Shown one piece after another: positions 39,086 through 59,740 of a stretch of DNA of 64,000 nt. The notes under the pieces are model-generated. The model worked only from the letters and a program-made list of their open reading frames with translations, was not told where the DNA came from and ran no database searches. Both the position numbers and the translations under genes were made by a program. Every line of letters begins with the position of its first letter. Positions within the stretch are counted from its first letter, which is position 1. Origin of the DNA: Bacteroidales bacterium (GTDB lineage: Bacteria; Bacteroidota; Bacteroidia; Bacteroidales; ML635J-15); the NCBI GenBank assembly GCA_031275085.1, contig JAISPG010000078.1:186001-250000 (forward strand). Reading direction: 5' to 3'.

Positions 39086-39625
39086 ATGACCAATACTAAA
39101 CTTGCAATATTAGAAAAGAACAACAAAACCAAATACTTTATAATTGGGAGTCTAGCTATTGGTACAGCCACATTTTTAGGCATCAAAATCTTTAAAATCA
39201 TAAACTGGTACAATGCACTTAAAATAAGTATTACAAGCAAAATCCACAACTACCGCAACGGCAACATAATACTAAAATGCCAGGTACAAATAGACAATCC
39301 CAAAAACTTTAAAATCACAATCACTAAACCTGCCATAAGGATTTTCAGCGGAAATAAACTAATTGCAAAATCCTCACAATCCAAAGAAAAAATAACAATA
39401 CAATCCAATACCGTAACAACAATAAACTATGATATAGAAATCCCCTTACTATCGGGAGAACTATATAAAATCCTTCTCACAGCAGGCGTAGGAATAACCA
39501 ACTACATAAAACAACTAAGCGAAGGTACGGCAACAAACCTGAACTTAGGCTTAAACCTAACTGTAAAAGGCTACATGCAGATCTACTTCATGGAAAAAGA
39601 ATTTACAAATAACATTACAATCTGA
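39086..39625 (+). CDS. LEA2-like single-TM protein, first gene of the viral module
   Basis: 179 residues. One TM helix (residues 18-40, FIIGSLAIGTATFLGIKIF) with a short cytoplasmic N-terminus is followed by a beta-sandwich of the LEA14/WHy type (ISITSKIHNYRNGNIILKCQ, VQIDNPKNFKITITKPAIRI). The start codon abuts a strong hairpin. It overlaps the next gene by one base. A virion membrane protein would fit; the WHy match is by pattern only. Confidence 0.65.
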   Translation: MTNTKLAILEKNNKTKYFIIGSLAIGTATFLGIKIFKIINWYNALKISITSKIHNYRNGNIILKCQVQIDNPKNFKITITKPAIRIFSGNKLIAKSSQSKEKITIQSNTVTTINYDIEIPLLSGELYKILLTAGVGITNYIKQLSEGTATNLNLGLNLTVKGYMQIYFMEKEFTNNITI

Positions 39626-41865
39626 TGAAATACGGAAGAAGAAATATAAAAAACGGAGACCAATTTGATAAATACTTTTCAAAACCTGAAAATGACATCA
39701 TTAAATATGGTAACAATCCTGTTATCTATAATGTAGAAAATATAATTCCCCAAATTGTAAACAAATACAAATATCAGGCAGAAAAAATATCAGATTATTT
39801 ATTTAATAAAGATATTTATGTATTTTGTAGAAATATATGGTCTTTCCTATTTAATTATATACAATATGAATATGACGATTTTGGTAAAGAACAATTTCGA
39901 ACCCCATCAAGGTCATGGCAGGACAGGAAAACTGGAATTGACTGCGATTGCTTTTCTATATTTATAAGTTGCATACTTTCAAATAAAAATACCCCGCACT
40001 ATATACGAATAACCAAATACGAATTTAACCCAAGCTGGCAACATATATATGTTATTGTGCCGAAGTCCACCAACACTTTTTCCCCTGATAATAACAGTAC
40101 ATATTACACCATTGATGCTGTTATCCACGAATTTAACAAAGAAAAAGAATTTACAAATCAAAAAACATATAGAATGGAAAGTAATTTAGGAATAGTTACC
40201 GAAGTATTAAGCGGTATAGAAAACCAAAATCAAGATATAATAACATCAGTATTAGCAGGAGATTTGGAGGGGTTAGGTACAGCTGAAGGCACAGCACAAT
40301 TAAAAAAACACTTGATACAAACCCGTGATTGGATAGCAAAAAATCCGACATTATACAAAGCACAAGGCGGAAGTCCCAAAGCAGGACTAAAAATGTATGA
40401 CTATGCAATAGAACATGTTGACAAACCTGCACATATAAGGGATAAGGCATTTGAAGTCCTTGCAAGAAATGAAGCCTCGTATAATAAAAATGTATTAAAA
40501 ATTCAGGACGAAGACCTTGACGGATACATTGATGACGATGATTATGAATTTTCCGCACTTGGTGATTTAGGTAAAGCCAAAGCCAGAAAAGCAAAAAGAC
40601 AGGAGAAAAAACAAGCCCGTAAAGAGAAGAAACAGGAAAAGAAAGCCATTAAAAAAGAAACAAAAAAGGAAAAAAAGCAAGAACGTAAGGACGAACGAAA
40701 AGAGAGAAAAGAAGAAAGAAAAAATGCACAGGGCTTTTTCCGTAAAATCGGTGTAGCTGTAAAACAAGGAGCAAAACAAGTATTAGTAAAGTACAATCCC
40801 GCAATAATAGCGGCTCGTGCAGGATTTTTAACGGCAGTAAGGCTGAATTTATTCCGTCTTGCAAGCCGTCTGGCTCCTGCATATGGTACAGAAGAAGAAG
40901 CAAAGAAAAAAGGCATAAACTATCTGGCTTCCAAAAAAATGCTTGATAAAGTCCATGAAATCTTCGATAAAAAACTGGAAGGCTCAAAAGCCGAGTTGAA
41001 AAAAGCGGTTCTTATCGGAGCATTAAAAAAAGGACAAGACCTGCAAGGATTAGGTGAAATACTCATGGGACTTGGCGATCCTGCCACAATGGCAAGTGTT
41101 CTTACTGCTGTTTCAGTAATAGTAGCAATTATAAATGCAATCATAAAAGTAGAAGACGAACACGGAATCGAAGGACTTTACGGATTTGGAGAAACCGATT
41201 CCATAAGAGATGATGTTGACGATGTGATTGAGTTCCTGAATGGATTGGACGATTATGTAAATGAAGAATGCCTTGACGGAAAGAAAAAAGTAAATGCAGG
41301 AGTGATAACAAGTTTTATCAAAAAGATTTTTGGCGGGAATAAAGAGAAAAAGGCTGAACGTAAAGCGAAAAGACAAGAAAAGAAAGCAACAAAGAATGCT
41401 GCAAAGCAAGAAAAGAAAACAGCAAAAACGGAGAAAAAAGAAACTAAATCACTGATAAAATCACAAACTAAATCTGCAAAAGCAGAAAATACTACAAATT
41501 CATCTGTTGGGAAAAAGATAGTTACCGGAGCAAAGAATTTTGTTCAGAATTTTACAAAAGCCCAGAATGGCGAACCTCTTGAAGATTATAACGAGCTGAT
41601 AATAGATAATACAGATGATTATATCATCAGCCCAAAAAATTCCCAATCAGCAAATGATGATAAAAAGAAAAAAACAAAGAAAATAATAATCGGAGCAGTT
41701 GGGGCAGGTGTTTTAGGAATAGGAGGAATCGCATTATTCAAATATTTGAAAAGTAAAAAGCCAAAAGCACTCCCTTCCGGACAAAATCAATCATTAAACG
41801 GATTAGACGGAACTAAAAAAAGAAAATCACAAAAAAGAAGAAAAGTGATAAAAGCAAGTCTTTAA
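39625..41865 (+). CDS. Large viral-module protein: transglutaminase-like domain, basic stalks, C-terminal TM
   Basis: 746 residues. Residues 90-170 carry a transglutaminase-like Cys/His/Asp set: GIDCDCFS (C107/C109), SWQHIYVIV (H140) and YYTIDAVIHEF (D164). Residues 315-370 and 570-620 are extreme Lys/Glu/Arg runs, between which lie hydrophobic and Gly-rich parts. A TM helix is near 690-710 (IIIGAVGAGVLGIGGIALF), and the tail is basic. Five-residue LxGLG-type motifs recur at 214, 473, 480 and 518. It may be a protease or crosslinking structural protein. The catalytic role is inferred from residue spacing only. Confidence 0.6.
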   Translation: MKYGRRNIKNGDQFDKYFSKPENDIIKYGNNPVIYNVENIIPQIVNKYKYQAEKISDYLFNKDIYVFCRNIWSFLFNYIQYEYDDFGKEQFRTPSRSWQDRKTGIDCDCFSIFISCILSNKNTPHYIRITKYEFNPSWQHIYVIVPKSTNTFSPDNNSTYYTIDAVIHEFNKEKEFTNQKTYRMESNLGIVTEVLSGIENQNQDIITSVLAGDLEGLGTAEGTAQLKKHLIQTRDWIAKNPTLYKAQGGSPKAGLKMYDYAIEHVDKPAHIRDKAFEVLARNEASYNKNVLKIQDEDLDGYIDDDDYEFSALGDLGKAKARKAKRQEKKQARKEKKQEKKAIKKETKKEKKQERKDERKERKEERKNAQGFFRKIGVAVKQGAKQVLVKYNPAIIAARAGFLTAVRLNLFRLASRLAPAYGTEEEAKKKGINYLASKKMLDKVHEIFDKKLEGSKAELKKAVLIGALKKGQDLQGLGEILMGLGDPATMASVLTAVSVIVAIINAIIKVEDEHGIEGLYGFGETDSIRDDVDDVIEFLNGLDDYVNEECLDGKKKVNAGVITSFIKKIFGGNKEKKAERKAKRQEKKATKNAAKQEKKTAKTEKKETKSLIKSQTKSAKAENTTNSSVGKKIVTGAKNFVQNFTKAQNGEPLEDYNELIIDNTDDYIISPKNSQSANDDKKKKTKKIIIGAVGAGVLGIGGIALFKYLKSKKPKALPSGQNQSLNGLDGTKKRKSQKRRKVIKASL

Positions 41866-41867
41866 AA

Positions 41868-42018: not shown

Positions 42019-42711
42019 ATGGCAACAAAAGCACAATTAGAAGCCTTGAAAAAAGCAAGAAAAGTAAGAGCCTCAAACCTTAAAAAGAAATATGGTTCGG
42101 GTTCAGGTGGAAGAACAAAAAGAAGCAAGGGATTGGGAGGTTTTTCTCTGGGTTCTGTAGCTACTGTCAAGCAGAAAGACGTGTTAGAAATGGTAAAAAA
42201 TTCCGGTGCAATCATACTCGGATATGTAGCAGGAAAAGTAACCGGAAACCTTATTGCTAAAGCAGTAGTTAAACCGGGAGATGAACAAGGTTTTGCAAAG
42301 TATATCGAACCCATCCTGCAACTTGGTGGCGGAGTAATCCTTACAGCTTCGGCAGGCAAAAACCAATTCTTTAAATACGCAGGTGCAGGAATGGTAACCA
42401 GTGGTGTAGTTACAGGAATTGAAAGAATTACTAAAAAGTCAATTATGGACTTGCTTGGAGTAAATAAGCTTGAAGGATTTTTAGGACTGGACGAAGGTAG
42501 CATAAGCGGAGCAAAAACAATTGACGAAATAGACAATATTTCATTTACTCCAAATCTGCCCGAACTTGAAGGTATTGATGATGAAATAGACTTTGAGGGA
42601 TTTGAAGGGTTGAATAATATAACTAGCGATAGTGATATTATTGAAAACACCCCGACACCTGCGGATTATTTTTCGGGAATGGACGATGATGATGGAATGG
42701 AAATCCTGTAA
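42019..42711 (+). CDS. Glycine-rich membrane protein of the viral module
   Basis: 230 residues. A basic N-terminus (residues 1-40, with LKKARKVRASNLKKKYGSGS) is followed by two or three hydrophobic, Gly/Ala-rich segments (SGAIILGYVAGKVTGNLIAK; LQLGGGVILTASAG; AGAGMVTSGVVTG) and an acidic tail. The profile fits a nucleic-acid- or membrane-binding virion component. No family was recognised. Confidence 0.6.
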   Translation: MATKAQLEALKKARKVRASNLKKKYGSGSGGRTKRSKGLGGFSLGSVATVKQKDVLEMVKNSGAIILGYVAGKVTGNLIAKAVVKPGDEQGFAKYIEPILQLGGGVILTASAGKNQFFKYAGAGMVTSGVVTGIERITKKSIMDLLGVNKLEGFLGLDEGSISGAKTIDEIDNISFTPNLPELEGIDDEIDFEGFEGLNNITSDSDIIENTPTPADYFSGMDDDDGMEIL

Positions 42712-42862: not shown

Positions 42863-43672
42863 ATGGAAAATGATATTTTAGATCAGATTGAAAACAGTGA
42901 GTTTGAAAATGTATCGGGACTTTTAGGTGATGTTTCGGAAGAAGAACTATTAGCGGTTGCCAAAAGAAACCCTAAAAAACTCAAAAGAGTAGTTTCAAGG
43001 GCATCAACCAAAGTAAAATCAAGCGGAGCAACAAATGCCGTAGCTTCGGCAGTACCGCAAGCGGCTTCACGCTCCGAGTTCGAGGCAAGGTTTACATCGC
43101 TTAAACCCGAACTTAAAAACGGACTTTTGAACAAAACAATGCAGTTGTCCGATACGGTAATTTATGTTACTAAATCAATTGACGGAGCAAAAACCGTAAA
43201 AATGTTTGAGGATTCGGACAACAAACTTGTGGGAGTTTCAAATATTTCATCCGCAAAGTTGGAAAAGAACGAAGTATTCCTATGTTCAGGTATTCAGGTG
43301 CTTTATGGAAAAGGTACAAGCACAGGAAACACTCAAACTAATGTCGCTACTGTTCCAAATTGGGAACTTCTGCCCCATTTCCTTGAATGTGGAGAATTTA
43401 CTTTCCGTGCTTCGGGTAAAACATTAATTGATAAAATGTCAAACTCGGTTTTCAAAAACTATATGACTGAAAAAATCAGCAATGCTACTCCTGCCATTGT
43501 AGGTGGAACTTCTTTCGGAGACGGCAATTTGCCGGGATTTTACAAACTGGCAAATCCAAAACTAATCGAAACACAACAAGCGATTGAGTTTACCTTAGAG
43601 TGGCTTGCCACAGCACCTCAATACTCCTATATAAGAGTAAACCTTTTCGGAACTAAAATCATGAAGTATTAA
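42863..43672 (+). CDS. Candidate major capsid protein (beta-rich)
   Basis: 269 residues. Residues 1-75 are acidic then basic helix with an Ala/Val-rich linker. Residues 75-269 are almost all predicted strands with turns (LSDTVIYVTKSIDGAKTVKM; ECGEFTFRASGKTLIDKM). The end, GFYKLANPKLIETQQAIEFT then LEWLATAPQYSYIRVNLFG, resembles the closing strands of jelly-roll capsid proteins. It precedes two small beta-rich genes. The capsid call is inference from size, strand pattern and position; I recognise no family. Confidence 0.45.
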   Translation: MENDILDQIENSEFENVSGLLGDVSEEELLAVAKRNPKKLKRVVSRASTKVKSSGATNAVASAVPQAASRSEFEARFTSLKPELKNGLLNKTMQLSDTVIYVTKSIDGAKTVKMFEDSDNKLVGVSNISSAKLEKNEVFLCSGIQVLYGKGTSTGNTQTNVATVPNWELLPHFLECGEFTFRASGKTLIDKMSNSVFKNYMTEKISNATPAIVGGTSFGDGNLPGFYKLANPKLIETQQAIEFTLEWLATAPQYSYIRVNLFGTKIMKY

Positions 43673-43778: not shown

Positions 43779-44144
43779 ATGTCAGAAAAAACTAAATATG
43801 AAGTTTACCAATTTCAGGTTACAGGAGCAACGACCAATATTGAAATTGACAGGAATATTGATAAGAGATACACAAAGGTTACGGATATTTTTATCTACAC
43901 ATCTTCTGTTGTCGAAAATAACAAGAACCTTGAGTTCTCAAAAGATTTAAGGATTGATGATAAAATAGTATATCCGCAAAACTTCGATAGCTTCATGTTG
44001 TATCCGATGATGCAGAATCAGGAATTTACAAAATTGCGTGAACCTATTTCTATCAACAGCTCAAAAATAGAAGGCGAATTAAAATTAGGAGAAAAAGTAG
44101 ATAAGGATTGTTCCCTGAAAATTGTATTAAAACTGGAAATGTAA
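43779..44144 (+). CDS. Small beta-rich protein, candidate minor capsid
   Basis: 121 residues from MSEKTKYEVYQFQ; earlier in-frame Met codons lie in the palindromic repeat. Strands alternate along the whole chain (YQFQVTGATTNIEIDR, VTDIFIYTSSV, DCSLKIVLKLEM), as in a single jelly roll. It follows the candidate capsid gene and is two bases ahead of another protein of the same size and style. Confidence 0.45.
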   Translation: MSEKTKYEVYQFQVTGATTNIEIDRNIDKRYTKVTDIFIYTSSVVENNKNLEFSKDLRIDDKIVYPQNFDSFMLYPMMQNQEFTKLREPISINSSKIEGELKLGEKVDKDCSLKIVLKLEM

Positions 44145-44146: not shown

Positions 44147-44509
44147 ATGCTTAAATGCTATAAACATATTACCAATATTGCACAGCAAAGCATAGGCTCT
44201 GTAACAATACCGGGCGGAGTAACCAAACTTACAGGTGTTGCAGTAGTCGGAGCTTCTACATGTAATTTTAAAAGAAAAGGCAATTCTTCAAACGGTTACA
44301 GGTTAAGGCTTATGATTAATAACAGGGCAGATAATCCAATAAATATAGATTATCAGGACACATATCTTGATGTTTTCAATAATGTAAATGAAAATTTAAG
44401 ACTAATCCAAATGGATTATAATCTAAAATCACAAACAAAGATAGACTACATTATTACTTACAGTTCCAAACCCCACCATTCGGTAAAATTATATTTAAGA
44501 TTTGAATAA
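44147..44509 (+). CDS. Small beta-rich protein, candidate minor capsid or penton
   Basis: 120 residues from MLKCYKHITN. All-beta pattern (SIGSVTIPGGVTKLTGVAVV; YRLRLMINNR; KIDYIITYSSKPHHSVKLYL). The N- and C-terminal strand arrangement is similar to that of the preceding protein. It overlaps the next start by one base. A single jelly-roll fold is a guess. Confidence 0.4.
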   Translation: MLKCYKHITNIAQQSIGSVTIPGGVTKLTGVAVVGASTCNFKRKGNSSNGYRLRLMINNRADNPINIDYQDTYLDVFNNVNENLRLIQMDYNLKSQTKIDYIITYSSKPHHSVKLYLRFE

Positions 44510-44844
44510 TGCAGATTTTCGATTACATAAAGCAAAGGATGATGAACATGGGTTATAACCCTGATGATGTGGTTATAGAACCCCATGTTGAACTATTCAG
44601 GGGTGAGAGAACCATAATTGAAGCAACCAATGTGTATTACTACCTCTATGATGTTACGGAATATACTCACTATTGGGTAATTGAATCCGACACCGAAATT
44701 TTAAACAACTTCAAATTTATACTTGACGAGAAAATACCATACGGAATAGCAGAGCTGACAGGCAATATTGAAATTACAGCAGTAGAAAAAGAAGAAAATA
44801 CATTTATGTTTTACAAGGCAACACCGGGGAGAGTTAAGAATTAA
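44509..44844 (+). CDS. Hypothetical 111-aa viral-module protein
   Basis: Mixed alpha/beta protein (FDYIKQRMMNMGYNPDDVVI; LYDVTEYTHYWVIES) with no signal or TM. Translationally coupled to the gene before it. No family was recognised. Behind it (44845-44946) lies a further AT-rich repeat-like spacer that begins with AATGAGGAATGAGAA. Confidence 0.45.
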   Translation: MQIFDYIKQRMMNMGYNPDDVVIEPHVELFRGERTIIEATNVYYYLYDVTEYTHYWVIESDTEILNNFKFILDEKIPYGIAELTGNIEITAVEKEENTFMFYKATPGRVKN

Positions 44845-44946
44845 AAATGAGGAATGAGAAACTAAAAAAAGAAGTTAAAGAAGTTAAGAATTAAAACCTT
44901 AGTGAACTTAGAGCCTTAGTGGTTACTTGAACTTAGAACTAATAAA

Positions 44947-45927
44947 ATGATGGCAAAAAGAATAAATAACGTGGAAAAGATGAGCATAAACAGCCTGCTT
45001 ACGGATTCTCATACAATAGTTACACAACTAATTCCTGATTCCGTAGCAAAAGCAGATGTCCATTACTGTGTTGAAGTTGCCAATAAAAAAGACCCTGAAT
45101 GGTTTATTGCGATTCCCAAGACAAATAAAATCCGCAATATGCGTGAGGTAATAGAAAAAGTTGTAGCTACCCAATCCCCACCTGCCATAGCAGTAACAAT
45201 ATACAGCAATGAAAAGACCGAACATACAAGATTATATTTAAAACTAGACAATACCTACGTTCCTGCCGTTGATGGTGAAGAACCTGAAGATTATAAAAAG
45301 CCTAATAAAGTTCATGATACTACTGATGAACTAACAGGACTGGGAACAATAGGTAATTTGATGATAGATAATAATAGAATACGTTTTGAAAATCAGATTG
45401 AAAACCTTAAAACCCAATATAATTCGGAGAAAAAACTACACCAGTTAGAACATCAGAACACAGTAAGGGAACTTAATAATGTAATTGACAGGCAGGAAAA
45501 AGAAATTGAAGAATTAAAAGAAGACCTTGCAGAAGCCACAATAACCATTGAACAATACGAAAAAGAATCTGCGGAAAAAAACTCCGATTTTGATAATGTG
45601 AAGAAATCTGGACTTAACCTGGCTTTAATGGGAATAGCCAGTAAAGTATTCGGAATTGAAGCCTCTGAACTTTCAGGCTTGTTCGGTTCGGGAGAAAGTC
45701 CTCAAAGTACACCAATACAACAACCTAAAAATGCCGAGTTTGAAATAGAACAACCAGAATTACCAGAATCCGGTATCAACCGTAATGAAGAAATTGCAGT
45801 AATAATAGACTTCTTACAAGGACTTGAACCTGAGTTAATGCAGAAAGTTATCGGTATTCTTCAATCCATTGCAGTGGATAATTCTTTGGCAGATACAATT
45901 CTTGAATTGATAACTCAAAACGTATAA
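44947..45927 (+). CDS. Coiled-coil viral-module protein
   Basis: 326 residues. Residues 15-115 are a mixed domain (VHYCVEVANKKDPEWFIAIP). An LTGLG motif lies at 129. Residues 140-215 are a long coiled coil. Then come a hydrophobic Gly-rich patch (SGLNLALMGIASKVFGI), a Pro/Gln linker and a helical end. It could be a structural spoke or scaffold. The 69-aa gene behind it starts two bases later. Confidence 0.45.
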   Translation: MMAKRINNVEKMSINSLLTDSHTIVTQLIPDSVAKADVHYCVEVANKKDPEWFIAIPKTNKIRNMREVIEKVVATQSPPAIAVTIYSNEKTEHTRLYLKLDNTYVPAVDGEEPEDYKKPNKVHDTTDELTGLGTIGNLMIDNNRIRFENQIENLKTQYNSEKKLHQLEHQNTVRELNNVIDRQEKEIEELKEDLAEATITIEQYEKESAEKNSDFDNVKKSGLNLALMGIASKVFGIEASELSGLFGSGESPQSTPIQQPKNAEFEIEQPELPESGINRNEEIAVIIDFLQGLEPELMQKVIGILQSIAVDNSLADTILELITQNV

Positions 45928-45929
45928 TT

Positions 45930-46139
45930 ATGGAATTTAATATAAAAATAACCATAGAAGCTAACGACAGCAATGAAGCCAATCAAATCATAAAATCATT
46001 GCTTGCCATATACAAACATCTTTCAACCGAAGATTTGATAGCAGTTGCGGGACACATTGAAAAAGACCCTAAAATAATAAACAAAGTGAAAAGTATAGCT
46101 GATAACCCATTTGTCAAAACCTTATTTAACAAGAAATAA
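45930..46139 (+). CDS. Hypothetical 69-aa helical protein
   Basis: Acidic N-terminal strand (MEFNIKITIEANDSNEANQI) then helices. The pattern LLAIYKHLSTEDLIAVAGHI may be a small interaction unit. It shares with the preceding protein a C-terminal helical style. No function is evident. Confidence 0.4.
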   Translation: MEFNIKITIEANDSNEANQIIKSLLAIYKHLSTEDLIAVAGHIEKDPKIINKVKSIADNPFVKTLFNKK

Positions 46140-46143
46140 GCAA

Positions 46144-47136
46144 ATGCCTGAAAAAAAGAAAAATATAACCCAGTTAGGCAACCCTGCATTAATAGCAGGA
46201 GCAACAACTGCATTGCTGAATAGTAAACAGGGACAGCAAGTTATTAATAAAACTGCCGATACTGTAACTATTCAAACTGAAAAAACAATTCAAGGCTTAC
46301 GAAAAGCAGGCAAAGTTGCAGGTATAGTTCTGATTGTCGGTGTTGGTTCTTATGTAAGCTATAAAAGTTATATCGCCATAAGAAGAAACCAGTTAAAGAA
46401 AAAAGCTCTTTCCAATCCTGAAATAAAAACAGCAATCGACCTTTGGGAATGTATTCCTGACGGATATAAAAATAAATGGTCGGTTTTCACCTTATTAAAT
46501 CCTCTATCATTAGTATCAAAGGCTTACGAAGAAATAGAAACACTTTGGAAAGACACTAATACTAAACGTCTGCTTGAAATTTCTGAAAATATTTATAAAA
46601 ACCAATACAGCATATCCAAAATTTCAAGGTACTTCAAAACACTATACGGCTTAGACCTAATTACAATCTTAAATAAAGTATTAACCGGAACTCAATTAGA
46701 TTCATTTTCAAACTATATAACTCGTGGATCAGCTTCAATAACACCACAAGTTCAAAACGGATTATTTGCATTTGCAAAGCAGGCTACCCATTTAAGGGAA
46801 AACCCTGAAATACCTACAACATGGTCAAACTTTACCAAAGGCGATAATGTAAAAGCTACAACAAAGAGCGGACAAATAGCAGGTCAGGTAACAGGTCGGG
46901 AACATACATATACCAATGGAAAAACCACAACAATCTTTGTAGAGCTTATGGCTTATGATTCCTCAAAGAATGATAATAAATATTGTGTTCCCGTATGGGC
47001 ATGGAAAGGCGGTTTTGACTTCCTTTCAAAAGAAGATATAAAAGAAAAATATGGCAATCCTGAAGTACTGGATTTAAACCTTTCCTTTTTCGGTAAAGTA
47101 AAAACAAGTTTTTTAAACTCCTTTAGATTCTATTAA
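46144..47136 (+). CDS. Single-TM viral-module protein with basic N-terminus
   Basis: 331 residues from MPEKKKNITQ; an upstream ATG would overlap the previous gene. One TM helix is near 60-78 (VAGIVLIVGVGSYVSY), flanked by Lys/Arg. The 250-residue C-terminal part is helical, then beta, with NVKATTKSGQIAGQVTGREH resembling an SH3-like or barrel turn. A membrane-embedded virion protein would fit. Confidence 0.5.
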   Translation: MPEKKKNITQLGNPALIAGATTALLNSKQGQQVINKTADTVTIQTEKTIQGLRKAGKVAGIVLIVGVGSYVSYKSYIAIRRNQLKKKALSNPEIKTAIDLWECIPDGYKNKWSVFTLLNPLSLVSKAYEEIETLWKDTNTKRLLEISENIYKNQYSISKISRYFKTLYGLDLITILNKVLTGTQLDSFSNYITRGSASITPQVQNGLFAFAKQATHLRENPEIPTTWSNFTKGDNVKATTKSGQIAGQVTGREHTYTNGKTTTIFVELMAYDSSKNDNKYCVPVWAWKGGFDFLSKEDIKEKYGNPEVLDLNLSFFGKVKTSFLNSFRFY

Positions 47137-48002: not shown

Positions 48003-48066
48003 AACATAGTGAGAGCAATGAATTAGAGTTATATAAATTTTTAATAATCGTACTAATCTTAAAGAT

Positions 48067-50653: not shown

Positions 50654-51417
50654 TAGGTGCTGTAATTGGTGCAATTACGCTAACTGTAACTTTATTGTTT
50701 ACCGGTAAAGACAAACCATTTACCAATGTAAAATATAAAGACAGGTCGGCAATCCATGTTTTAATATCAAGTGGACACGGAAGTATTTTAAATTCCATTT
50801 ACCAGACTTTGGGCAAGCAGTCCCCGACATGGGCTGACAGCCTTAAAATCTATGAGGGTTACTCAACTAAGATGTTAGCACTGGATTTAAGCCATAAGTT
50901 AATGCAAAATAATATAGATGTTACTTATATCAATGCTTATAATACGGATATGACATTAAATGAACGTGTTCAGAGAGTCAATGAACTATATAAAAACGAT
51001 AAGCGTGTAATCTTAATAGATATACACCATAATGCTCAACCAATTGGAAAAGCTAATTATACGGATTTTGAGGGATATAAAGGTTTTGTAAATTCTCCGT
51101 TTGGTGCAACAGGAATAGAAACTTTCACATCAGTAGGTTTTACAGAATCGGATATAATAAATAATGAATTTATCATTCCCGAACTTGAAAATGACTTTCA
51201 ATTCCGGTATGGAACATGGACAAAAGGTAAAGAAGAAAACTTTTATATGCTAAAGCATTCCCACTGCCCTGCGGTACTTATCGAATTTCTATTTATGACA
51301 ACCTACGAAGATTGTCTACTCATAGCAGATCCTGAACAAAGAGATTTATTTACTACTCATATTACAAATGCACTTGTAAATTACAATAACTATCTAAATT
51401 CTAAAGGCAATGAATAA
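50629..51417 (+). CDS. N-acetylmuramoyl-L-alanine amidase (Amidase_3)
   Basis: 262 residues. A signal-anchor helix (residues 7-24) precedes a zinc amidase: SSGHGS near 47 (His ligand), YEGYSTKMLALDL near 75 (Glu), IDIHHNAQ near 131 (His) and CPAVLIEFLFM near 215 (catalytic Glu). It cleaves the bond between muramic acid and the stem peptide. The N-terminal anchor may put it in the virion membrane or export it in SAR-endolysin style. It overlaps the holin-like gene. Confidence 0.85.
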   Translation: MQKNKVKIIGAVIGAITLTVTLLFTGKDKPFTNVKYKDRSAIHVLISSGHGSILNSIYQTLGKQSPTWADSLKIYEGYSTKMLALDLSHKLMQNNIDVTYINAYNTDMTLNERVQRVNELYKNDKRVILIDIHHNAQPIGKANYTDFEGYKGFVNSPFGATGIETFTSVGFTESDIINNEFIIPELENDFQFRYGTWTKGKEENFYMLKHSHCPAVLIEFLFMTTYEDCLLIADPEQRDLFTTHITNALVNYNNYLNSKGNE

Positions 51418-51916
51418 GGAAATATTAAATAATAAATGGGTAAAAGTTGGAATCGTAACTATTGGGGTTGCTTCTGTTATCGGGGTAATTGTATATGTGA
51501 TAAAAAAGAAAAATGATAAGAAAAAACTTGCTAATCTTATAAGTTCCGCACAGAAAGAAATCGGAGTAAATCCAACTGCAACAAATAATAATGTTACCGT
51601 ACAAAACAATGGTATTGGATTAGTTAGTTCCTATACTGCAAATTCTTTTACTGCAAACAAAAAGACATATATATTTGAAAAATCGGGAATAATCAAACTA
51701 CAAAAATACTTTTCAGAAAAGGATCCTGAAGCTAAAAAACTGATTGCCGAAAGCGGAGGTTTTGACGGAATTATCGGAAAAGCTTTTGTTACATCATTAA
51801 GCATACTTTCAAAGAAAATGCCCTTGTCAATTACATTTACAGATACTTATATAAAATCTTTATTTACGCTTGCAAAACTGAATACGAACGAGTTTGAAAT
51901 TAGAAATGAGGAATGA
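51410..51916 (+). CDS. Single-TM viral-module protein
   Basis: 168 residues with a TM helix at 11-29 (VGIVTIGVASVIGVIVYVI) and a basic stop-transfer. The 100-residue exterior part contains KSGIIKLQKYFSEKDPEAKK then a helix-rich end, perhaps a peptidoglycan-binding-like helical unit. The last residues (EIRNEE) and the stop come from the palindromic repeat that follows. Confidence 0.45.
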   Translation: MNKEILNNKWVKVGIVTIGVASVIGVIVYVIKKKNDKKKLANLISSAQKEIGVNPTATNNNVTVQNNGIGLVSSYTANSFTANKKTYIFEKSGIIKLQKYFSEKDPEAKKLIAESGGFDGIIGKAFVTSLSILSKKMPLSITFTDTYIKSLFTLAKLNTNEFEIRNEE

Positions 51917-52000
51917 AGAAATAAGGGAATAGAAAATGAGGAAATAGTAAATAGGCATTTGGCAGGCTTCATTTACCATTTACTATTCACTTGCAACTAT
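51917..52000 (+). repeat. Intergenic imperfect palindrome (GAGGAAATAG type)
   Basis: GAGGAAATAGTAAATAG on the left pairs with CATTTACTATTCAC on the right. The repeat starts inside the end of the previous gene. Confidence 0.6.
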
Positions 52001-52009
52001 TTAAAAACA

Positions 52010-52606
52010 ATGAAACAACTAATGAATAATATAATACTGATAGTAATAATTATAATCTGCTTTTTAATAATCGGCAGGCTGATATATACCCGAAGAAAAG
52101 AGAAAGTCAGATATGATGAAAATATGAATGTTCTGTTTTTGCAAAACTATAGCCTTGAAACAAGGAATGGACAGCTTGCCAATCAGGTAAAAACATTAAG
52201 GCTTACGGTTGATGAGTTTGAAAAATATGTTCCTGAACTAAAATCTGAAATCCATAACCTTAAAATAAAACTTAAAAGGGTTGAAAGTATCTCACAAATA
52301 ACAACCAAAATCACAGATACAATAAAAGTCCCGATAAAAGATACAGTCATTTTAACGGATAGCTTAAAAACATTCAGCTATAACGATGAATTTACAAATA
52401 TATCAGGAAAGATATTCACAGATAGCCTTGATTTAAGCTATTCCGTTTTTGATTCAATTATTCAGGTAGTCCATAAAGGTAAATATCAAAAGTGGCACTA
52501 CGCACTTAATCCATTTCGTAAACGACCATTGGTGCAGACTATAACAACTAAAAATCCTAATACGACCATTTTATATAACAGGCATATTGTAATTGAAAAG
52601 AAATGA
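52010..52606 (+). CDS. Rz/spanin-like single-TM coiled-coil protein
   Basis: About 198 residues from MKQLMNNIIL; upstream in-frame codons are in the repeat. One TM helix at 6-24 (IILIVIIIICFLIIGRLIY), a coiled coil at 45-95, then repeated strands. Topology recalls an inner-membrane spanin, and the gene lies in the lysis block, but no lipoprotein partner is evident. It overlaps the methylase gene by four bases. Confidence 0.5.
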   Translation: MKQLMNNIILIVIIIICFLIIGRLIYTRRKEKVRYDENMNVLFLQNYSLETRNGQLANQVKTLRLTVDEFEKYVPELKSEIHNLKIKLKRVESISQITTKITDTIKVPIKDTVILTDSLKTFSYNDEFTNISGKIFTDSLDLSYSVFDSIIQVVHKGKYQKWHYALNPFRKRPLVQTITTKNPNTTILYNRHIVIEKK

Positions 52607-53685
52607 ACGGCAAATTTGTCCAACATATTGAAAAAGAATTAAAAACCGATGTCAGGCATAATAAACGAAGCATTGAAAAAATAGCTTCTTCTTACGGTAT
52701 TTACGACAAAAATCTTATCAAAGAACTGACAGAACTTGCTATTGTAAATCTCTGCCGTGAAATATCAAAGGCTGAACTTATCGAAAATTATATAAACTTC
52801 TCTCTTATAGTTGATATTTACAAACGGCAGGTCAATCTTTCGCACCGAACATCAAAATCAATAATGTTCCAGCAGTATTCAACACCTGCACCGATTTCTT
52901 ATGTGGGTGGATTATTCCTGTTGCAACAACACAAAAACCTATGCAATTTCAAAAAAGAAAAATATACGATTCCATTATGCTTTGAACCATCTGCCGGGAA
53001 CGGTTTATTAGCAATTGCTCTACCATATAAAAACACTTATGTAAACGAGGTTGATAAAGTAAGACTCAACAATTTGAAAACACAACCCTTTGCAAGAATA
53101 ACCAATCAGGATGCAACTAAACCATTTAATGATTATTACCGTAAATTTGATTGTGTTATAACTAATCCGCCATTCGGAAGTCTGTCAGAAGCTGTATATT
53201 ATGATAGTTACCCTATAAAATGCTTAGACCATTTAATGGCATTACGTGTATTGGACACAATGAAAAATGAGGGAAGTGCAGTAATAATAATCGGAGGTCA
53301 TACCCAGTGGGACGATAAGAACAGAATACAGGCAGGAAAAAATCGTATTTTTTTCAATTATCTGTACTCACATTATTTCGTTTCCGATGTAATTGCAATT
53401 GACGGACACAGCTTATATTCAAAGCAGGGAACATCATTTGACGTAAGAATGATACTAATAAACGGCAGAAAAATAAAAACAGACGGAGTTGCACCTCTCA
53501 AAGCCTATCCGCAAGATGAAACCGTATATGATTTTGATGACCTGTACGATAGAGTTTTGAAAGAACAAACAATTGAAAAATTTGAGAATAAGGAGTTTTG
53601 TAAATGGCTATCGGCAAAAACGAGAATGATTAAAATAAGTAACAAGTTACAAGTAAGCTCCGCACCAAAAACTTGCAACTTGTAA
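52603..53685 (+). CDS. N6-adenine DNA methyltransferase
   Basis: 360 residues. Motif I region FEPSAGNGLLAIALPY near 126-141 binds SAM, and motif IV FDCVITNPPFGSLSEA near 184 is the NPPF form of N6-adenine methylases. An N-terminal 100-residue helical part precedes it. Methylases of this type often stand beside a Strawberry-notch helicase on phages and plasmids, as here. The last 15 residues and the stop are read from a palindromic repeat. Confidence 0.85.
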   Translation: MNGKFVQHIEKELKTDVRHNKRSIEKIASSYGIYDKNLIKELTELAIVNLCREISKAELIENYINFSLIVDIYKRQVNLSHRTSKSIMFQQYSTPAPISYVGGLFLLQQHKNLCNFKKEKYTIPLCFEPSAGNGLLAIALPYKNTYVNEVDKVRLNNLKTQPFARITNQDATKPFNDYYRKFDCVITNPPFGSLSEAVYYDSYPIKCLDHLMALRVLDTMKNEGSAVIIIGGHTQWDDKNRIQAGKNRIFFNYLYSHYFVSDVIAIDGHSLYSKQGTSFDVRMILINGRKIKTDGVAPLKAYPQDETVYDFDDLYDRVLKEQTIEKFENKEFCKWLSAKTRMIKISNKLQVSSAPKTCNL

Positions 53686-53703
53686 CTTTTCACTTGCAAC
53701 TAA
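53636..53703 (+). repeat. Imperfect palindrome at the methylase 3' end
   Basis: AAGTAACAAGTTACAAG pairs with CTTGCAACTTGTAACTT. It supplies the C-terminal codons and stop of the methylase, so it has been added to, or replaced, the natural 3' end. Confidence 0.7.
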
Positions 53704-53715
53704 AAATTAATAACC

Positions 53716-56700
53716 ATGAAATACAACCATTACGTAAAAGTCAGAATAAACAAAAGAGAAGTTTGGCTTTATATAGACCAAATCAAAACGGATAAGAATG
53801 GTGATTTAATCGGGAAATCCCTGAAAGATAACAAGTATTATTCTTTCTCCCCAAGCGATGTCCTTGCATTCTATTCAGGGAATATCAAAGATATTAAAGG
53901 TTTGGGAATGGCTTATGTTCCGGCTTCCGATGTCGGAACTATACTCGACACAATTGTTCCCGATTCAATGGCTTATGAAACACATATTTCTGCAAGGATA
54001 ATAGAAATCAAACTAAAGCAGAGCCTTGATAAATATGTAGCAAAGAAATTACATTATACAGAAAGCGAATTACACAAATACCTTTCAGCCGAACAGATTG
54101 ATGCAATAGCAATGGCAGTTTATAATATCGAAAAAAAGAAACAGGCAATAATCATAGGCGATCAGACAGGTATAGGAAAAGGCAGGGTAGCTGCAAGTAT
54201 CATAAGATACGGAGTCCTTAAAGGCAAAAAGCCAATTTTCGTAACTGAAAAACCCAACCTCTTTTCAGATATTTACAGGGACTTAAAAGATATTGGAAGT
54301 GAAAACTTTAAACCGTTTATTGTAAATAACTTTGACGTAAAAACAAAAGTCAAAGACGATAACGGAGATGTTATTTATGAACCACTACGACAGAATGAAC
54401 AGGAAAAAATCTTTAAAACAGCAAAACTCCCTGCGGAATTTGATTATATCGAATTAACCTACTCACAGGTATCAAGTGAAAAACCAACACTAAAACAAGG
54501 ATTTATAAGGAAAATGGCACATGATAATATAATTATCCTTGATGAAAGCCATAATGCGGGTGGAAATATGAATACTTCAAACACAGCACGGTATTTTTAT
54601 GATATTGTCAGTATGGCTCAGGGAGTAATTTTCCTTTCCGCAACATTTGCAAAACGTCCCGATAATATGCCTTTATATGCCTGCAAAACTTCAATGTCGG
54701 AAGCCAATATGTCGCATGACGAATTAGTAGAAGCAGTACAAAAAGGCGGTGTTGCATTGCAGGAGGTTTTATCCGCACAGCTTGTTCAGGAGGGACAGAT
54801 GATAAGGCGTGAACGTAGTTTTGAGGGCGTGGAAGTAAATTGGATATTGCTTGATGAAAAAAAACATGAACATATTTCGGTATTTGATAATATTACATCT
54901 GTACTTCGTGATATTATCAGTTTTCAGGAAAATCATGTTAAGGATATTGTTTCTGCAATGGACAGCATAGCTTCGGCAGAGGGAAAGGAAGTGGAAGAAA
55001 GAAAAGGAACAAGCAAGGCAGGGGTTGATAATTCCCCATTTTTCTCAAAAGTATTCCAGGTAATTAATCAGATATTATTCTCATTAAAAGCTAAATCGGT
55101 AGCAGAACTTGCAGTACAACATTTGGAAAACGGCAAAAAGCCTGTAATTGCTTTTTCTTCAACAATGGAAACATTTTTGGAAGAAGTCGGGGAAATTGGC
55201 GAAACCGTAAACTGCGATTTTAAATCGGTACTCCAAAAAGGATTAGACAGCGTCCTGAAATATACGGTTATTACTCCTGAAGGAAGCCGGGAACATAAGC
55301 AATTTTCAACCCATGAACTGGGAATGGAAGCAGTAACTGCATATAACGAAATAAGCAATAAAATAAACAGCATATCTACAGGAATATCATTAACCCCGAT
55401 TGATATTATAAAAAGCCATGTGAGAAATGCAGGCTATACGATTGATGAAGTTACAGGTCGTGATTTGGAAGTACAATTTACAGGTAAAAGCGAATCTCTT
55501 GGAGTATTATTAAAAAGAAAAAAACTATCTGCAACCGATGCTTTCAGGCAGTTTAATAATAATGAACTTGACTGCCTTATGATAAACCAGTCGGGAAGTA
55601 CCGGAGCTTCTGCCCATGCTATTATAACAAAAAAAGTTTCTGCAAACGAAGTAAAACAGCGTGTAATGATAATATTGCAGGCTGAACTTGATATTAACAG
55701 GGAAGTACAAAAAAGAGGACGTATAAACCGCACAGGGCAGATAATGAAACCCATTTATGATTATGTAATGTCAGTAATCCCTGCTGAAAAAAGATTGATG
55801 ATGATGTTGCGGAAAAAGCTCAAAAGTTTGGATGCAAATACTACATCTAACCAGAAACAAAGCGAAAAATCAATTGAGGGAGATGATTTCTTGAATAAAT
55901 ACGGCGATAAAGTAGTTACCGACTATCTTGTTGAAAATACTGATATTGCTCAAATGCTTGATGATCCGTTAAAATTTGAAACAACAAATCAAGGTGCAGG
56001 TGTTATTGAAGGGGCTTCAAGCAAGGTTTCGGGACGTGTTGCCGTATTATCAGTCGATGAACAGGAACAGTTTTATAATGAAATACTTGAACGTTACAAT
56101 GAATATGTTGATTATTTAAGACAGGCTGGTCAGTATGATTTGGAAGTGGAGGCATTAAATCTTGAAGCAAAAACACTAGATAAGGAAGTTACGGTTCAGG
56201 GAAAAGACGGCGGAAGTGTTTTTGCTGAAAATACATATCTTGAAAAATGCGAGGTCAATGTTCTGAAAAAGCCTTTTACAAAAGATGAATTGCAGAATAT
56301 TATTACTAAAAACCTTGATAACCGCAATACAAAAGACATTCAAAATGGATTGATTCAGGAAGTGAAAGATTTTCATTTGAAAAAGGTAGATGATGGAATA
56401 ATCGAAACTGAAGAAAAATACAAGAAACTGGTTGAAAATATCACAAAAGAAAAGAAGTATCAAAAACTTAATACGGCATTTGAAAGGGAGAATTACATAA
56501 AAAACAGGGAAAGGGAACTAAATACAGCAAGTGAGGAAGCTGTAAAAATGCTGAAAGATAAACTGAACAATCAATACAAATATATTTACGGTTACATTTC
56601 ATTTTTCTATATTGGGAAAGCATTGGAATATCCTACATTTTTTCAACAAACCGAAAAAGCTGTATGTGTAAATATTGCAGTTGACAGGAAAAAGAAAAAT

Positions 56701-57600
56701 CCATTTACCCCCTCAAATATTAAAATACAGGTAGCTGTTGCAAACAGTACAAAATATATGTCATTGGCTTTAAGCGGAGAAACGGCAAGGTCGTTGTCCG
56801 AAATAATGGGAAACTCCATAAGGAATACATCTTATGATGATGAAAGCGTAATAAAGAACTGGCAGGAATATACAGAAAAGTCAAATGTTAACAGGCAGGT
56901 AAGATATATTGTTACAGGAAACATACTACAAGGCTATGCAAAGTTTGATAATGGCAAACTTATTTCATATACACTTCTTGACGGAGGGATTAAGAAAGGA
57001 ATATTACTTCCTGAAAATTATGACCCTCAAAAAAACATAAAGGATAAGTTTGTAAATGTTCCCATAGGCAAGGCGGAAAGGTATATTATGGATTTGGGTA
57101 CAAATTCTGCGGTAAGGTCTTCTGATGATAAAATCGTACTGTATCGTGAAAACCGTTACAGTTCGGATAATTATTCTTTTACGGTTCCGGCAAACAGGAA
57201 TTACCACAACTACATCAAAGATGAAAATATTATTGCATTATGCAATAATCCTGATGGTTTTGAAAGGAAAAGCGACAGAATGGTTGCATATTTTCAAAAG
57301 GAGAATATTCCCAAATTACTGCAATATTTAGATAAGGAGTTTAAGTTGTCAATAGCAGTATCAAAGGCATATTTCTCAACTTACTTTGATAATATTGATG
57401 ATAACAGTAGCTATCAAAAAGATAATCTTACAAAGGAAGCAGAAAAAATATATGAAAAAGACAAGCAGGATTTTGAGAAACGGAAACAAGTACAACAAAA
57501 GGTAAAATCTCCGAAAGAAGTAAAAAGTACCATTGATGAAAAATCAAGGAAAATAAAAATAGCTAAAGCTAAAATGATGATGTTGAAGTTAAATTTTTAA
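53716..57600 (+). CDS. Strawberry-notch-type superfamily 2 helicase
   Basis: 1294 residues. After an N-terminal 110-residue domain comes the helicase: IIIGDQTGIGKGRVAASII near 148 (Walker A), NIIILDESHNAGGNMN near 273 (DExH), VIFLSATFAKRPDN near 305. The C-terminal helicase lobe has INQSGSTGASAHA near 631 and NREVQKRGRINRTGQI near 660, characteristic of Strawberry-notch proteins. The last 400 residues are unfamiliar. The enzyme is an ATP-driven DNA translocase; here it may serve replication, DNA modification or packaging. Confidence 0.85.
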   Translation: MKYNHYVKVRINKREVWLYIDQIKTDKNGDLIGKSLKDNKYYSFSPSDVLAFYSGNIKDIKGLGMAYVPASDVGTILDTIVPDSMAYETHISARIIEIKLKQSLDKYVAKKLHYTESELHKYLSAEQIDAIAMAVYNIEKKKQAIIIGDQTGIGKGRVAASIIRYGVLKGKKPIFVTEKPNLFSDIYRDLKDIGSENFKPFIVNNFDVKTKVKDDNGDVIYEPLRQNEQEKIFKTAKLPAEFDYIELTYSQVSSEKPTLKQGFIRKMAHDNIIILDESHNAGGNMNTSNTARYFYDIVSMAQGVIFLSATFAKRPDNMPLYACKTSMSEANMSHDELVEAVQKGGVALQEVLSAQLVQEGQMIRRERSFEGVEVNWILLDEKKHEHISVFDNITSVLRDIISFQENHVKDIVSAMDSIASAEGKEVEERKGTSKAGVDNSPFFSKVFQVINQILFSLKAKSVAELAVQHLENGKKPVIAFSSTMETFLEEVGEIGETVNCDFKSVLQKGLDSVLKYTVITPEGSREHKQFSTHELGMEAVTAYNEISNKINSISTGISLTPIDIIKSHVRNAGYTIDEVTGRDLEVQFTGKSESLGVLLKRKKLSATDAFRQFNNNELDCLMINQSGSTGASAHAIITKKVSANEVKQRVMIILQAELDINREVQKRGRINRTGQIMKPIYDYVMSVIPAEKRLMMMLRKKLKSLDANTTSNQKQSEKSIEGDDFLNKYGDKVVTDYLVENTDIAQMLDDPLKFETTNQGAGVIEGASSKVSGRVAVLSVDEQEQFYNEILERYNEYVDYLRQAGQYDLEVEALNLEAKTLDKEVTVQGKDGGSVFAENTYLEKCEVNVLKKPFTKDELQNIITKNLDNRNTKDIQNGLIQEVKDFHLKKVDDGIIETEEKYKKLVENITKEKKYQKLNTAFERENYIKNRERELNTASEEAVKMLKDKLNNQYKYIYGYISFFYIGKALEYPTFFQQTEKAVCVNIAVDRKKKNPFTPSNIKIQVAVANSTKYMSLALSGETARSLSEIMGNSIRNTSYDDESVIKNWQEYTEKSNVNRQVRYIVTGNILQGYAKFDNGKLISYTLLDGGIKKGILLPENYDPQKNIKDKFVNVPIGKAERYIMDLGTNSAVRSSDDKIVLYRENRYSSDNYSFTVPANRNYHNYIKDENIIALCNNPDGFERKSDRMVAYFQKENIPKLLQYLDKEFKLSIAVSKAYFSTYFDNIDDNSSYQKDNLTKEAEKIYEKDKQDFEKRKQVQQKVKSPKEVKSTIDEKSRKIKIAKAKMMMLKLNF

Positions 57601-57685: not shown

Positions 57686-57704
57686 AATATAAAAATAAAT
57701 GATT

Positions 57705-59246
57705 ATGAAAGTTACAATACAAAATTACGATGAAGCAATAAAAAATATTGGATTGAAAAACCTTAATCCGAAACAGGCAAAGGCACATGAGAATATTGTC
57801 AGAGATAAAAAAGATGAGATATTTGATGAGTTGATGAACGATAGTGAGTATGCCGGCATTGTGAAAAATTATTTTAAGTCTTTGGAAGTTATGGTAGGAA
57901 AAAAAGGGAATAAGAAAATAGTAAATAAGACATCAAAAAGAGCGGTAAGGAAAGTAACAAAAAGAAAAGTTCCCAAAACTGTTAAGCCTGTAAAAAAAGA
58001 AGAGGTTGATAGAAAAACAGCAGTTTCAAAACCTAAGAGGAAAACAGTAACGAAAACCACAAAGAAAAAAATATCTGTAAAACCTAAAAAAGAGGATAAT
58101 GTAAAATATGTTGAAAGTATTGATATTGAAGTGAGTTTGATTAAAAGGTTTGCACTACTGCATAATAAAACCAAAACAATAGGTCAGTTAACAACATTGC
58201 TTACGGCACTAAAAAAAGCTATACTTCAAAAGAAAATCCGTGCCAATTCCATTTTTGTAAAGGAAATAAAGGAAATGGAAAAACGTCTTCTAAAACTTAT
58301 TGATACCGTAAAAAAACAAAAGGCAGATGAAGTAAAAATCACTATTGATGATTACCAAAAGTTTAAAGAAATTGGAAACTCCGAAAAGGTTATCAAAGCT
58401 GTAACTTACATAATCCGGTATATGGGATTAGTAAATAAACCGAATATTGACACTAAAGCTAAAAATCTTTTAAGCCATATAAATACTGCATTAGACAAAG
58501 GTGAAATTGATAAAAATTATATGGAAACCATAAAATTTATAAAGTCAAATTTGTCCAACTTGGACAATAATAAAACATTGCTTGAAATACCGCAGACTGC
58601 ATTGCAGGGGTTACAGGGTTTGAACGGTTTAAGTGGTTTTGACGGTTTGGGTTCATTATCTTCAATTTTGAGTGATTTGGCAAACCCTGAACCTGAAATG
58701 GTATCGGCTCAACAATTAGCAAGAATGGATTTTAATGATATTGAGTTAGAGCCTGAATTTGAAGAAGTATTAGGCAGAATTGCAAAAAGTTGTGCTATTA
58801 TGATTTCGGGAGAGCCGGGAAGCGGGAAGAGTTCTTTTGCCTTGTTGTTTGCTAAATCGAGAGCAGAACAGGGAAAACGTGTACTTTATATTACAAGCGA
58901 AGAGGGTATCAATTCAACAATGAAAGAAAAGATAATTAGATATAAAGCAACATTACCGAATCTTATTATTACTACAAAAATCCCTGATAATAAGAGTTCT
59001 TATGATGATATTATTTTTGATTCTGCTCAAACTTTGCAATTAACGCCGGAAGATATTAGAAATAATAAAAATCTTAATGCTGACTTGTGTTTTTATGTAT
59101 TTCAGGTTACGAAAGGGGGAGTTTTCAGGGGGGCAAAGGATTTTGAACATGAGGTAGATGTTGTTTTAAAGGCTCACAATGGTATTGTCTCGTCAAAAGG
59201 CTGTAAGAATCGTTTTGGCGGTAATGGTGAGATAAGGGTGTATTGA
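57705..59246 (+). CDS. RadA-like ATPase with basic N-terminal region
   Basis: About 513 residues; an ATG two codons earlier is equally possible. Residues 55-135 are a Lys-rich, histone-like stretch. Residues 145-295 are helical. A Gly/Leu linker follows (near 300-320, with FDGLG). The end is a compact RecA-type core: IMISGEPGSGKSSFALLFAK (Walker A), RVLYITSEEG, FDSAQT, FQVTKGGVFRGAKDFEHEVD and GCKNRFGGNGEIRVY. The VTKxG, LEHxVD and KNRFG motifs are signatures of RadA/Sms. The zinc finger and Lon-like domain of RadA are missing. It could act in recombination or DNA translocation. Confidence 0.8.
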   Translation: MKVTIQNYDEAIKNIGLKNLNPKQAKAHENIVRDKKDEIFDELMNDSEYAGIVKNYFKSLEVMVGKKGNKKIVNKTSKRAVRKVTKRKVPKTVKPVKKEEVDRKTAVSKPKRKTVTKTTKKKISVKPKKEDNVKYVESIDIEVSLIKRFALLHNKTKTIGQLTTLLTALKKAILQKKIRANSIFVKEIKEMEKRLLKLIDTVKKQKADEVKITIDDYQKFKEIGNSEKVIKAVTYIIRYMGLVNKPNIDTKAKNLLSHINTALDKGEIDKNYMETIKFIKSNLSNLDNNKTLLEIPQTALQGLQGLNGLSGFDGLGSLSSILSDLANPEPEMVSAQQLARMDFNDIELEPEFEEVLGRIAKSCAIMISGEPGSGKSSFALLFAKSRAEQGKRVLYITSEEGINSTMKEKIIRYKATLPNLIITTKIPDNKSSYDDIIFDSAQTLQLTPEDIRNNKNLNADLCFYVFQVTKGGVFRGAKDFEHEVDVVLKAHNGIVSSKGCKNRFGGNGEIRVY

Positions 59247-59740
59247 TGTTAAAAAAACAAGAAAATAATAGTCTTCCTGTGGCAGTTGGATTGAGCCTTT
59301 TATCGGTAGCAATTGCTACGGGGGTTATTGTTTATTTTAGAAATAGGAAAGTTAAGGTTTTAGGGGATTATCCTGTCAAAATCACAAGCCCTTTCGGGTA
59401 TCGTATTCACCCGATTACAGGAGAGCGTAAACTTCATAATGGGATTGATTTATCTGCCCCGATAGGAACGCCTGTGTATTCTCCAATGGCAGGTACGGTT
59501 TCGAGTGTTTGGCAGGATAGTGTTAATGGGATTGCTGTGAAGTTGAACCATAATGATAGTATTCATACGGTTTATTGTCATTTGAGTAAGGTATTGGTTG
59601 GTGTTGGGCAGAAGATTAGGAAAGGGGAAATAGTTGCTCTAACAGGTAATACGGGAGCAAGTACCGGGCCGCATTTGCATTTTGGGGTGTGGAATGTGGG
59701 GAGGGGTGGGTTTGTGGAGCCAAAGGAGATGATATTCTGA
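59243..59740 (+). CDS. M23 zinc peptidase with signal anchor
   Basis: 165 residues. A TM anchor at 13-30 (VGLSLLSVAIATGVIVYF) precedes a lysostaphin-type M23 domain: SPFGYRIHPITGERKLHNGI near 49-68 with ligands His and Asp of HxxxD, then VYCHLSKV and GPHLHFGVW with the HLH ligands. It cuts peptide crosslinks in peptidoglycan. It overlaps the preceding gene by four bases and closes the 20.6-kb rightward module, so a virion or lysis enzyme is likely. Confidence 0.88.
   Translation: MMLKKQENNSLPVAVGLSLLSVAIATGVIVYFRNRKVKVLGDYPVKITSPFGYRIHPITGERKLHNGIDLSAPIGTPVYSPMAGTVSSVWQDSVNGIAVKLNHNDSIHTVYCHLSKVLVGVGQKIRKGEIVALTGNTGASTGPHLHFGVWNVGRGGFVEPKEMIF

Follow-up and report, generated by a model that had tools for sequence, protein, structure and literature searches.

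A tRNA-integrated provirus in a Bacteroidales genome, probably of a tailless icosahedral virus distantly related to phage SSIP-1

The closest described counterpart of the element presented here is SSIP-1, an isolated tailless phage of Salisaeta that stems from a very salty site and whose host genus belongs to Rhodothermota (Bacteroidota/Chlorobiota group). The parts of the literature that deal with it describe an unclassified, membrane-containing icosahedral virus (T = 49) with a 44-kb circular double-stranded DNA (dsDNA) genome, two types of capsid protein, and scarcely any similarity to GenBank entries (PMC6260650, PMC6356626, PMC4958249, PMC5332951). One of its proteins, gp40, is listed as a predicted packaging ATPase (PMC4124505, in the section concerned). 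Here, we discuss a 44.2-kb element (19186-63467) in a stretch of 64,000 nt, hereafter the window, taken from the 3.08-Mb draft genome GCA_031275085.1 of a Bacteroidales bacterium (contig JAISPG010000078.1, 186,001-250,000 of the forward strand). Very probably, it is a temperate provirus, and the dsDNA virus that it encodes is tailless, icosahedral, and a distant relative of SSIP-1. A preliminary description had proposed an undescribed tailless lineage, which is supported, albeit as one that is not wholly unprecedented, given SSIP-1 as a distant relative. The extent then suggested, 39086-59740 (20.6 kb), is too narrow for the element; it does correspond to a rightward module, which we confirm and whose genes (all on the plus strand) are lettered A to U. 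We refer to this module as the cassette.

Two cassette genes tie the element to SSIP-1. A 16-row profile of B (39625-41865), a transglutaminase-like protein with a C-terminal transmembrane segment, finds SSIP-1 gp34 with an HMMER E value of 1.5e-17 and an hhalign probability of 97.8% (next SSIP-1 protein 0.4%), and a 5-row profile of T (57699-59246), a putative packaging ATPase, finds gp40 with E 6.4e-19 and 98.5% (next 9.1%). Both gp34 and gp40 are annotated as structural in the SSIP-1 record, and Pfam recognizes Transglut_core in gp34 (E 8.9e-7). T is an ATPase of the KaiC/RadA type, with matches to KaiC, DnaB_C, and RadA/Sms and to phrog_6891 (E 1.6e-18). Judged by these sequence matches, the provirus is distantly related to SSIP-1, which also has a methylase (there within the structural protein gp43) and an annotated integrase. 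On the other hand, only these two proteins match clearly, and the capsid proteins are not alignable by sequence: D and E gave nothing convincing in hhalign against 57 SSIP-1 proteins, the best for D being gp46 at 2.7-5.7%. A Strawberry-notch helicase is encoded here, whereas Pfam finds none in gp43 (2319 amino acids, structural, with the methylase). Furthermore, the gene order differs, the host phylum differs, and the element described here is a tRNA-integrated provirus carrying genes for a ribosomally synthesized and post-translationally modified peptide (RiPP). The likeness in size (44 kb versus 43.8 kb for SSIP-1) may be coincidence, because a relative (L018) lacks the insertion seen here. 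When gp46 and gp34 were used as queries for further SSIP-1 relatives in IMG/VR, SSIP-1 itself was the only hit.

The preliminary description had pointed out three consecutive β-rich proteins (starting at 42863, 43779, and 44147), which indeed exist and correspond to D (42863-43672), E (43779-44144), and F (44147-44509), and it had expected the product of the first to adopt a capsid fold. The AlphaFold model of D (AF2, pLDDT 85, pTM 0.80) shows one 8-strand barrel (residues 93-269), in line with that expectation, and the model of E (pLDDT 91.4, pTM 0.84) shows one barrel in 121 residues. The top solved-structure matches of D are viral capsid proteins, with a jelly-roll enzyme scoring not far below; its best Foldseek match is SPV1 (Portogloboviridae), and a BFVD search with D returned a mixture of capsid and unrelated matches with low TM scores. 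By sequence, D is unmatched in PHROGs, Pfam, phage records, and IMG/VR, and its comparison with the PDB yielded nothing meaningful (one chain, E 0.42). We thus deal with two predicted single jelly-roll proteins, D and E, perhaps joined by F, a possible tandem paralogue of E: hhalign aligns E with a 3-sequence F profile at 72%, but this profile includes L042's second, E-like copy, which on its own gives 95%, and E against F by itself reaches just 1.4%. From these models, D and E would build the virus shell.

Single and double jelly-rolls had both been considered before, and it is the single form that the models favor. A relative of the double jelly-roll viruses (PM2, FLiP, and tectivirus types) is very unlikely; D and E do match the single barrels of PRD1 P3, PBCV-1, and PM2 P2, but each model holds one barrel only, so a double jelly-roll capsid was rejected. 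Moreover, no FtsK/HerA ATPase was matched among the 30 window proteins scanned with Pfam (a set that does not include 49595, 50444, 52004, or 60972, nor some further proteins, mainly from short open reading frames, ORFs).

The cassette is not confined to one genome. Homologues of D occur in 15 of the 100 genomes searched as relatives and in 8 of 395 drawn across the phylum (the window's own genome counted in both). With B as the query, a scan of a species-genome collection yielded 338 candidate stretches, 213 of which encode B relatives; the best 80 were inspected (L040-L119), and 77 of these have record titles naming Bacteroidota groups, namely Bacteroidales, Chitinophagales, Flavobacteriales, Cytophagales (including Fulvivirga), and Sphingobacteriaceae. 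The other three titles concern two loci from one "bacterium" metagenome-assembled genome (MAG) and one "Thalassovita" MAG contig (L107). The latter is probably misbinned, since its cassette profile scores are the same as those of Fulvivirga L111; B is split into two ORFs in L107 as well as in L111/L113. Profile matches (E <= 1e-3) across 85 loci (L040-L124) number 85 for B, 74 for D, and 71 for E. Seventy-one loci extend more than 2.5 kb beyond B; D is encoded in 70 of them, in every case after B, and D together with E in 68, where E invariably comes after D (the count set no condition on the position of E). The exceptions are L067 (neither D nor E) and L060 and L068 (no E). The B-D-E order is conserved phylum-wide.

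No match to terminase, portal, HK97, or tail-tube families was found with PHROGs in 30 proteins of the element (at a cut-off of E 1 for 20 of the module's 21 proteins, and at 0.001 for the remaining one, 53716, and nine others; the set left out 59824, 19460, and about a dozen insertion or left-arm proteins), nor to terminase, portal, or HK97 in the Pfam-scanned set. These were the matches named beforehand as able to overturn the tailless-virus idea. Also, TerL_ATPase (PF03354), the only terminase family sought genome-wide, had no matches in the host assembly, while the control found it in 3 of 14 genomes. The product of 59246 matches PHROGs labelled "tape measure" and "minor head protein" strongly, with E down to 5.7e-24, but the matches are confined to its M23 peptidase domain. 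Further matches with a tail label are weak: 39086 matches a tail fibre PHROG (E 0.013); 47436 matches a minor tail protein PHROG (E 0.002) across its fibre motif; and the tail-labelled PHROGs of 39625 and 44947 lie over coiled-coil or charged stretches (E 0.037 or worse).

One could ask whether the element goes back to a tailed phage, of which it would be a remnant or satellite, or is a gene-transfer agent, with its terminase, portal, and HK97 genes lost. In favor of this, Q and the fibre motif look like genes of tailed phages, Bacteroides phage BS-TP4, whose portal is annotated, has a Strawberry-notch protein, and E resembles capsid-associated chains of the phages Pam1 and KHP40. Yet the B-D-E order is kept throughout the phylum, neither terminase nor portal shows up among ten additional proteins from a relative of 45.8 kb (one transglycosylase domain in it does match head- or tail-labelled PHROGs), and there is the homology to SSIP-1, so we regard this explanation as very unlikely. 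As terminase, portal, and HK97 went unmatched among the scanned proteins and the D model is a jelly-roll whose top solved matches are viral capsid proteins, the tailless-virus reading is supported, and the homology to SSIP-1 virion proteins supports it independently.

The ends of the element are marked by a perfect 43-bp direct repeat, with attL at 19186-19228 and attR at 63425-63467 (a repeat period of 44,239 bp) and exactly two copies in the entire assembly. The right copy forms the 3' part of an intact tRNA-Met gene (63425-63499, minus strand), which is the sole tRNA gene within the window. Adjoining attR lies a tyrosine integrase (61845-63206, minus strand; Phage_integrase E 1.7e-9, phrog_1 E 2.2e-23), and just inside attL a repressor-like helix-turn-helix protein (19460-19888, minus strand; Pfam HTH_26 E 4.4e-8). 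The integrase beside attR, the perfect tRNA-Met repeats, the early genes shared with a relative, and the phylum-wide cassette together argue for a provirus. The tRNA-Met gene is also a plausible native integration site. Around the 789-amino-acid gene of the right flank, tRNA-Met precedes, in the same strand arrangement as in the window, in 2 of ten same-genus regions (at 250 bp in G003 and 2.3 kb in G011); in the remaining eight the tRNA is tRNA-Arg (four), tRNA-Pro (two), or none (two), and in region G025 tRNA-Met lies on the opposite side of the gene. The site is no more than plausible because neither the att string nor the genes on the window's left flank were found in the G003 and G011 regions, which thus provide no empty junction. 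As for att repeats in six relatives, only chance-like repeats of 19 and 20 bp turned up in the stretches examined.

Inside attL, four early genes on the plus strand (20692-22952) encode proteins of 457, 83, 121, and 80 amino acids. One relative contig (L018 = G026, the contig of L040) has all four upstream of its cassette and in unchanged order. There, the gap to gene A measures 0.85 kb versus 16.1 kb in the window, which suggests that the RiPP island was inserted into the provirus. The insertion (22961-38817) comprises a LytTR regulator, a radical SAM maturase, an S41 peptidase, an export set of C39-ABC exporter, HlyD, and outer-membrane efflux protein (OEP), a grasp-with-spasm pair, and an aspartyl protease. 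The maturase (25464) is a radical SAM/SPASM protein that is Clo7bot-like, with a score under that model's cut-off; the grasp-with-spasm pair (35125 and 36220) matches TIGR04192 and TIGR04193, each above the curated cut-off. The RiPP island itself spans 24245-37302 inside the provirus, with none between early genes and cassette in L018, and the small ORFs 25093, 33699, and 33979 have Gly-Gly leader-like ends (by eye), making them candidate leader peptides. An unusually large size had earlier been ascribed to cargo and a Strawberry-notch helicase; the cargo stands, as the RiPP island, but the helicase (S) is a conserved cassette gene rather than cargo, since it lies near the cassette in all 6 relatives inspected.

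With RiPP and export genes between the att sites, the jelly-rolls might instead form a secreted or surface structure tied to those genes, on an integrative island that is not viral at all. That no replication gene is recognised in the window copy fits such an island and weighs against a virus. However, L018 has the early genes and the cassette 0.85 kb apart without RiPP genes there, lysis enzymes are present, and so are homologues of SSIP-1 virion proteins, which makes a non-viral island very improbable. As separate observations, the 121-amino-acid early protein (22340-22705) shows a DnaJ-type HPD motif (by eye) with nine similar ORFs in the loci compared, and a relative from IMG/VR (G500, L174-L176), unlike the window copy, has a recognised primase (1034 amino acids); it also carries a large methylase and, close to either end, integrase-like genes.

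Returning to the provirus and its proteins, B is a putative maturation protease. Its alignment (92 rows: the window, 90 ORFs, and SSIP-1 gp34) shows a triad of Cys107, His140, and Asp164, present in 87/88, 88/88, and 87/87 of the rows with a letter at that position; the five B ORFs without it are either second pieces or short ORFs of their own. SSIP-1 gp34 aligns at the Cys and the His and has no letter in the Asp column, and the B profile has no match in the PDB. Adenovirus protease cleaves at (M/I/L)XGX-G, which resembles the LxGLG motif in these proteins. The form [LIM]xG[LMFI]G occurs 159 times versus 15.6 expected from shuffling in the 90 B-family ORFs (82 carry it), and the enrichment (observed versus expected) is likewise strong in H (37 members; 23 versus 1.3), moderate in A (58; 16 versus 3.2) and C (50; 16 versus 4.3), and seen in J (6; 3 versus 0.4), but not in D (73; 3 versus 3.7), E (87; 1 versus 1.9), or T (9; 0 versus 0.5), with 79 versus 49.0 in 1061 other ORFs. 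These counts are not independent events, because family members are related, and the motif forms were picked after viewing the sequences. Among proteins A-J of the window, the narrower [LIM]xG[LMF]G is found five times (four in B, one in H) versus 0.28 expected and a maximum of 2 in 300 shuffles; the late module of SSIP-1 has 12 of a looser form (5.0 expected) and 3 of the narrower (0.87). The pattern suggests that B has itself as well as minor or scaffold-like proteins as substrates: during maturation, it would cut LxGL|G-like sites in its own chain, in H, and in other minor proteins. Alternatively, LxGLG is a binding motif and not a cleavage site.

A second function may reside in R and S (52603-57600; starts at 52603 and 53716). 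R is methylase-like, if weakly so (Eco57I E 0.0014, weaker than the cut-off; phrog_14770 E 2.9e-18), and S, the Strawberry-notch helicase, holds the Pfam domains AAA_34 (E 2e-26) and Helicase_C_4 (E 2.5e-19). Just three phage records match S (E <= 1e-5), that is, Bacteroides phage BS-TP4 (a 5391-amino-acid protein) and two Acinetobacter phages. PADLOC, run on seven proteins, gave one weak mad2 match, to R. Phage P1 DarB offers an analogue for the injected protection of incoming DNA. By that analogy, R and S would be carried in the virion and shield the DNA as it enters. As the putative packaging ATPase, T would drive DNA into the shell.

The other cassette genes fit around these functions. A (39086-39625) is membrane-anchored, with one transmembrane segment and a weak LEA_2 match (E 0.012), and its profile matches 59/85 loci; C (42019-42711), a small protein, matches 50/85, and G, H (a coiled coil), I, and J (44509-47136) match 11, 37, 53, and 6. 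K, L, and M (47436, 48067, and 49595; 47436-50296) are putative fibre or receptor-binding proteins that may attach to the host, without a profile match in the 85 loci; L has one Reg_prop repeat, and the fibre motifs announced earlier are in place as HVTAQEKARWN in the 47436 product and VNGKLPDEKGN in the 49595 product. A probable lysis segment follows (50444-52606), with N, O, and the membrane proteins P and Q. The predicted enzymes are borne out by Pfam as Amidase_3 in O (50629, E 2.2e-15) and Peptidase_M23 in U (59246-59740, membrane-anchored, E 5.8e-29), and the holin-like gene N (50444) encodes 69 amino acids with one hydrophobic segment, its best PHROG match being E 0.021. Holin, amidase, and M23 enzyme would open the cell. 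Q matches phrog_14010 and 63 phage records, the majority from Bacteroides and Phocaeicola phages. As anticipated, one or more hydrophobic segments are present in eight proteins (39086, 39625, 49595, 50444, 50629, 51410, 52004, and 59246), by a Kyte-Doolittle mean of >= 1.6 over 19 residues. Together with the example of SSIP-1, they suggest that the virion has an inner lipid membrane, in or beneath which the membrane-anchored proteins would sit.

Where would such a virus belong? Two single jelly-roll proteins, as the fold models predict here, are typical of Helvetiavirae/Singelaviria (P23-77, SH1, and HHIV-2), a group with temperate members in the Simuloviridae, according to the portion of the literature concerned. 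Helvetiavirae are described as having acquired an FtsK-like ATPase (PMC8812541, in the relevant passage) and are now placed in Singelaviria (PMC12451622, likewise). T, in contrast, is of the KaiC/RadA type, with no FtsK/HerA type found among the 30 Pfam-scanned proteins, and D has no meaningful PDB sequence match; because of T, we do not file the provirus there. SPV1 is an archaeal virus, which the same passage of PMC8812541 gives as having no packaging ATPase. Bamfordvirae and Abadenavirae have the double jelly-roll capsid, unlike the single-barrel models of D and E, and Caudoviricetes have the terminase, portal, and HK97 capsid that are unmatched in the scanned proteins. FLiP-like double jelly-roll sequences in Bacteroidetes genomes (PMC5894146, as excerpted) represent a different group. 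We tentatively raise the possibility, doubtful as it still is, that SSIP-1 and this phylum-wide temperate tailless lineage form a separate high-rank group with single jelly-roll shells, a KaiC/RadA-type packaging ATPase replacing FtsK/HerA, and a transglutaminase-fold protease converged on an adenovirus-type site ([LIM]xG[LMFI]|G).

The orphan SSIP-1 thereby gains a large set of relatives, and tailless, probably membrane-containing temperate viruses are placed in all the Bacteroidota groups listed above, with related loci in several named isolates, for example Chitinophagaceae LGM1, Taibaiella soli R1-15, Plebeiobacterium marinum D04, and Marinilabilia salmonicolor JCM 21150. We recognised no report of such proviruses in open-access papers (subscription papers and bioRxiv not covered). 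Virus catalogues seem nearly to miss them as well, as suggested by the five loci in the IMG/VR scan with B (none with D alone) and the absence of B and D from 50,697 phage records. Their proteins bear on two questions: how DNA might be packaged by single jelly-roll viruses that lack an FtsK-type pump, and whether proteolytic maturation has evolved repeatedly.

Two minor observations complete the description. Between U and the integrase (59824-61799), a GHKL-ATPase-like ORF precedes another that matches phrog_6203; neither has a PADLOC match, and the pair is perhaps one broken gene. In some genomes, D is present more than once, in separate locations (three copies in G494, two in G498), as though one host harbored several related proviruses.

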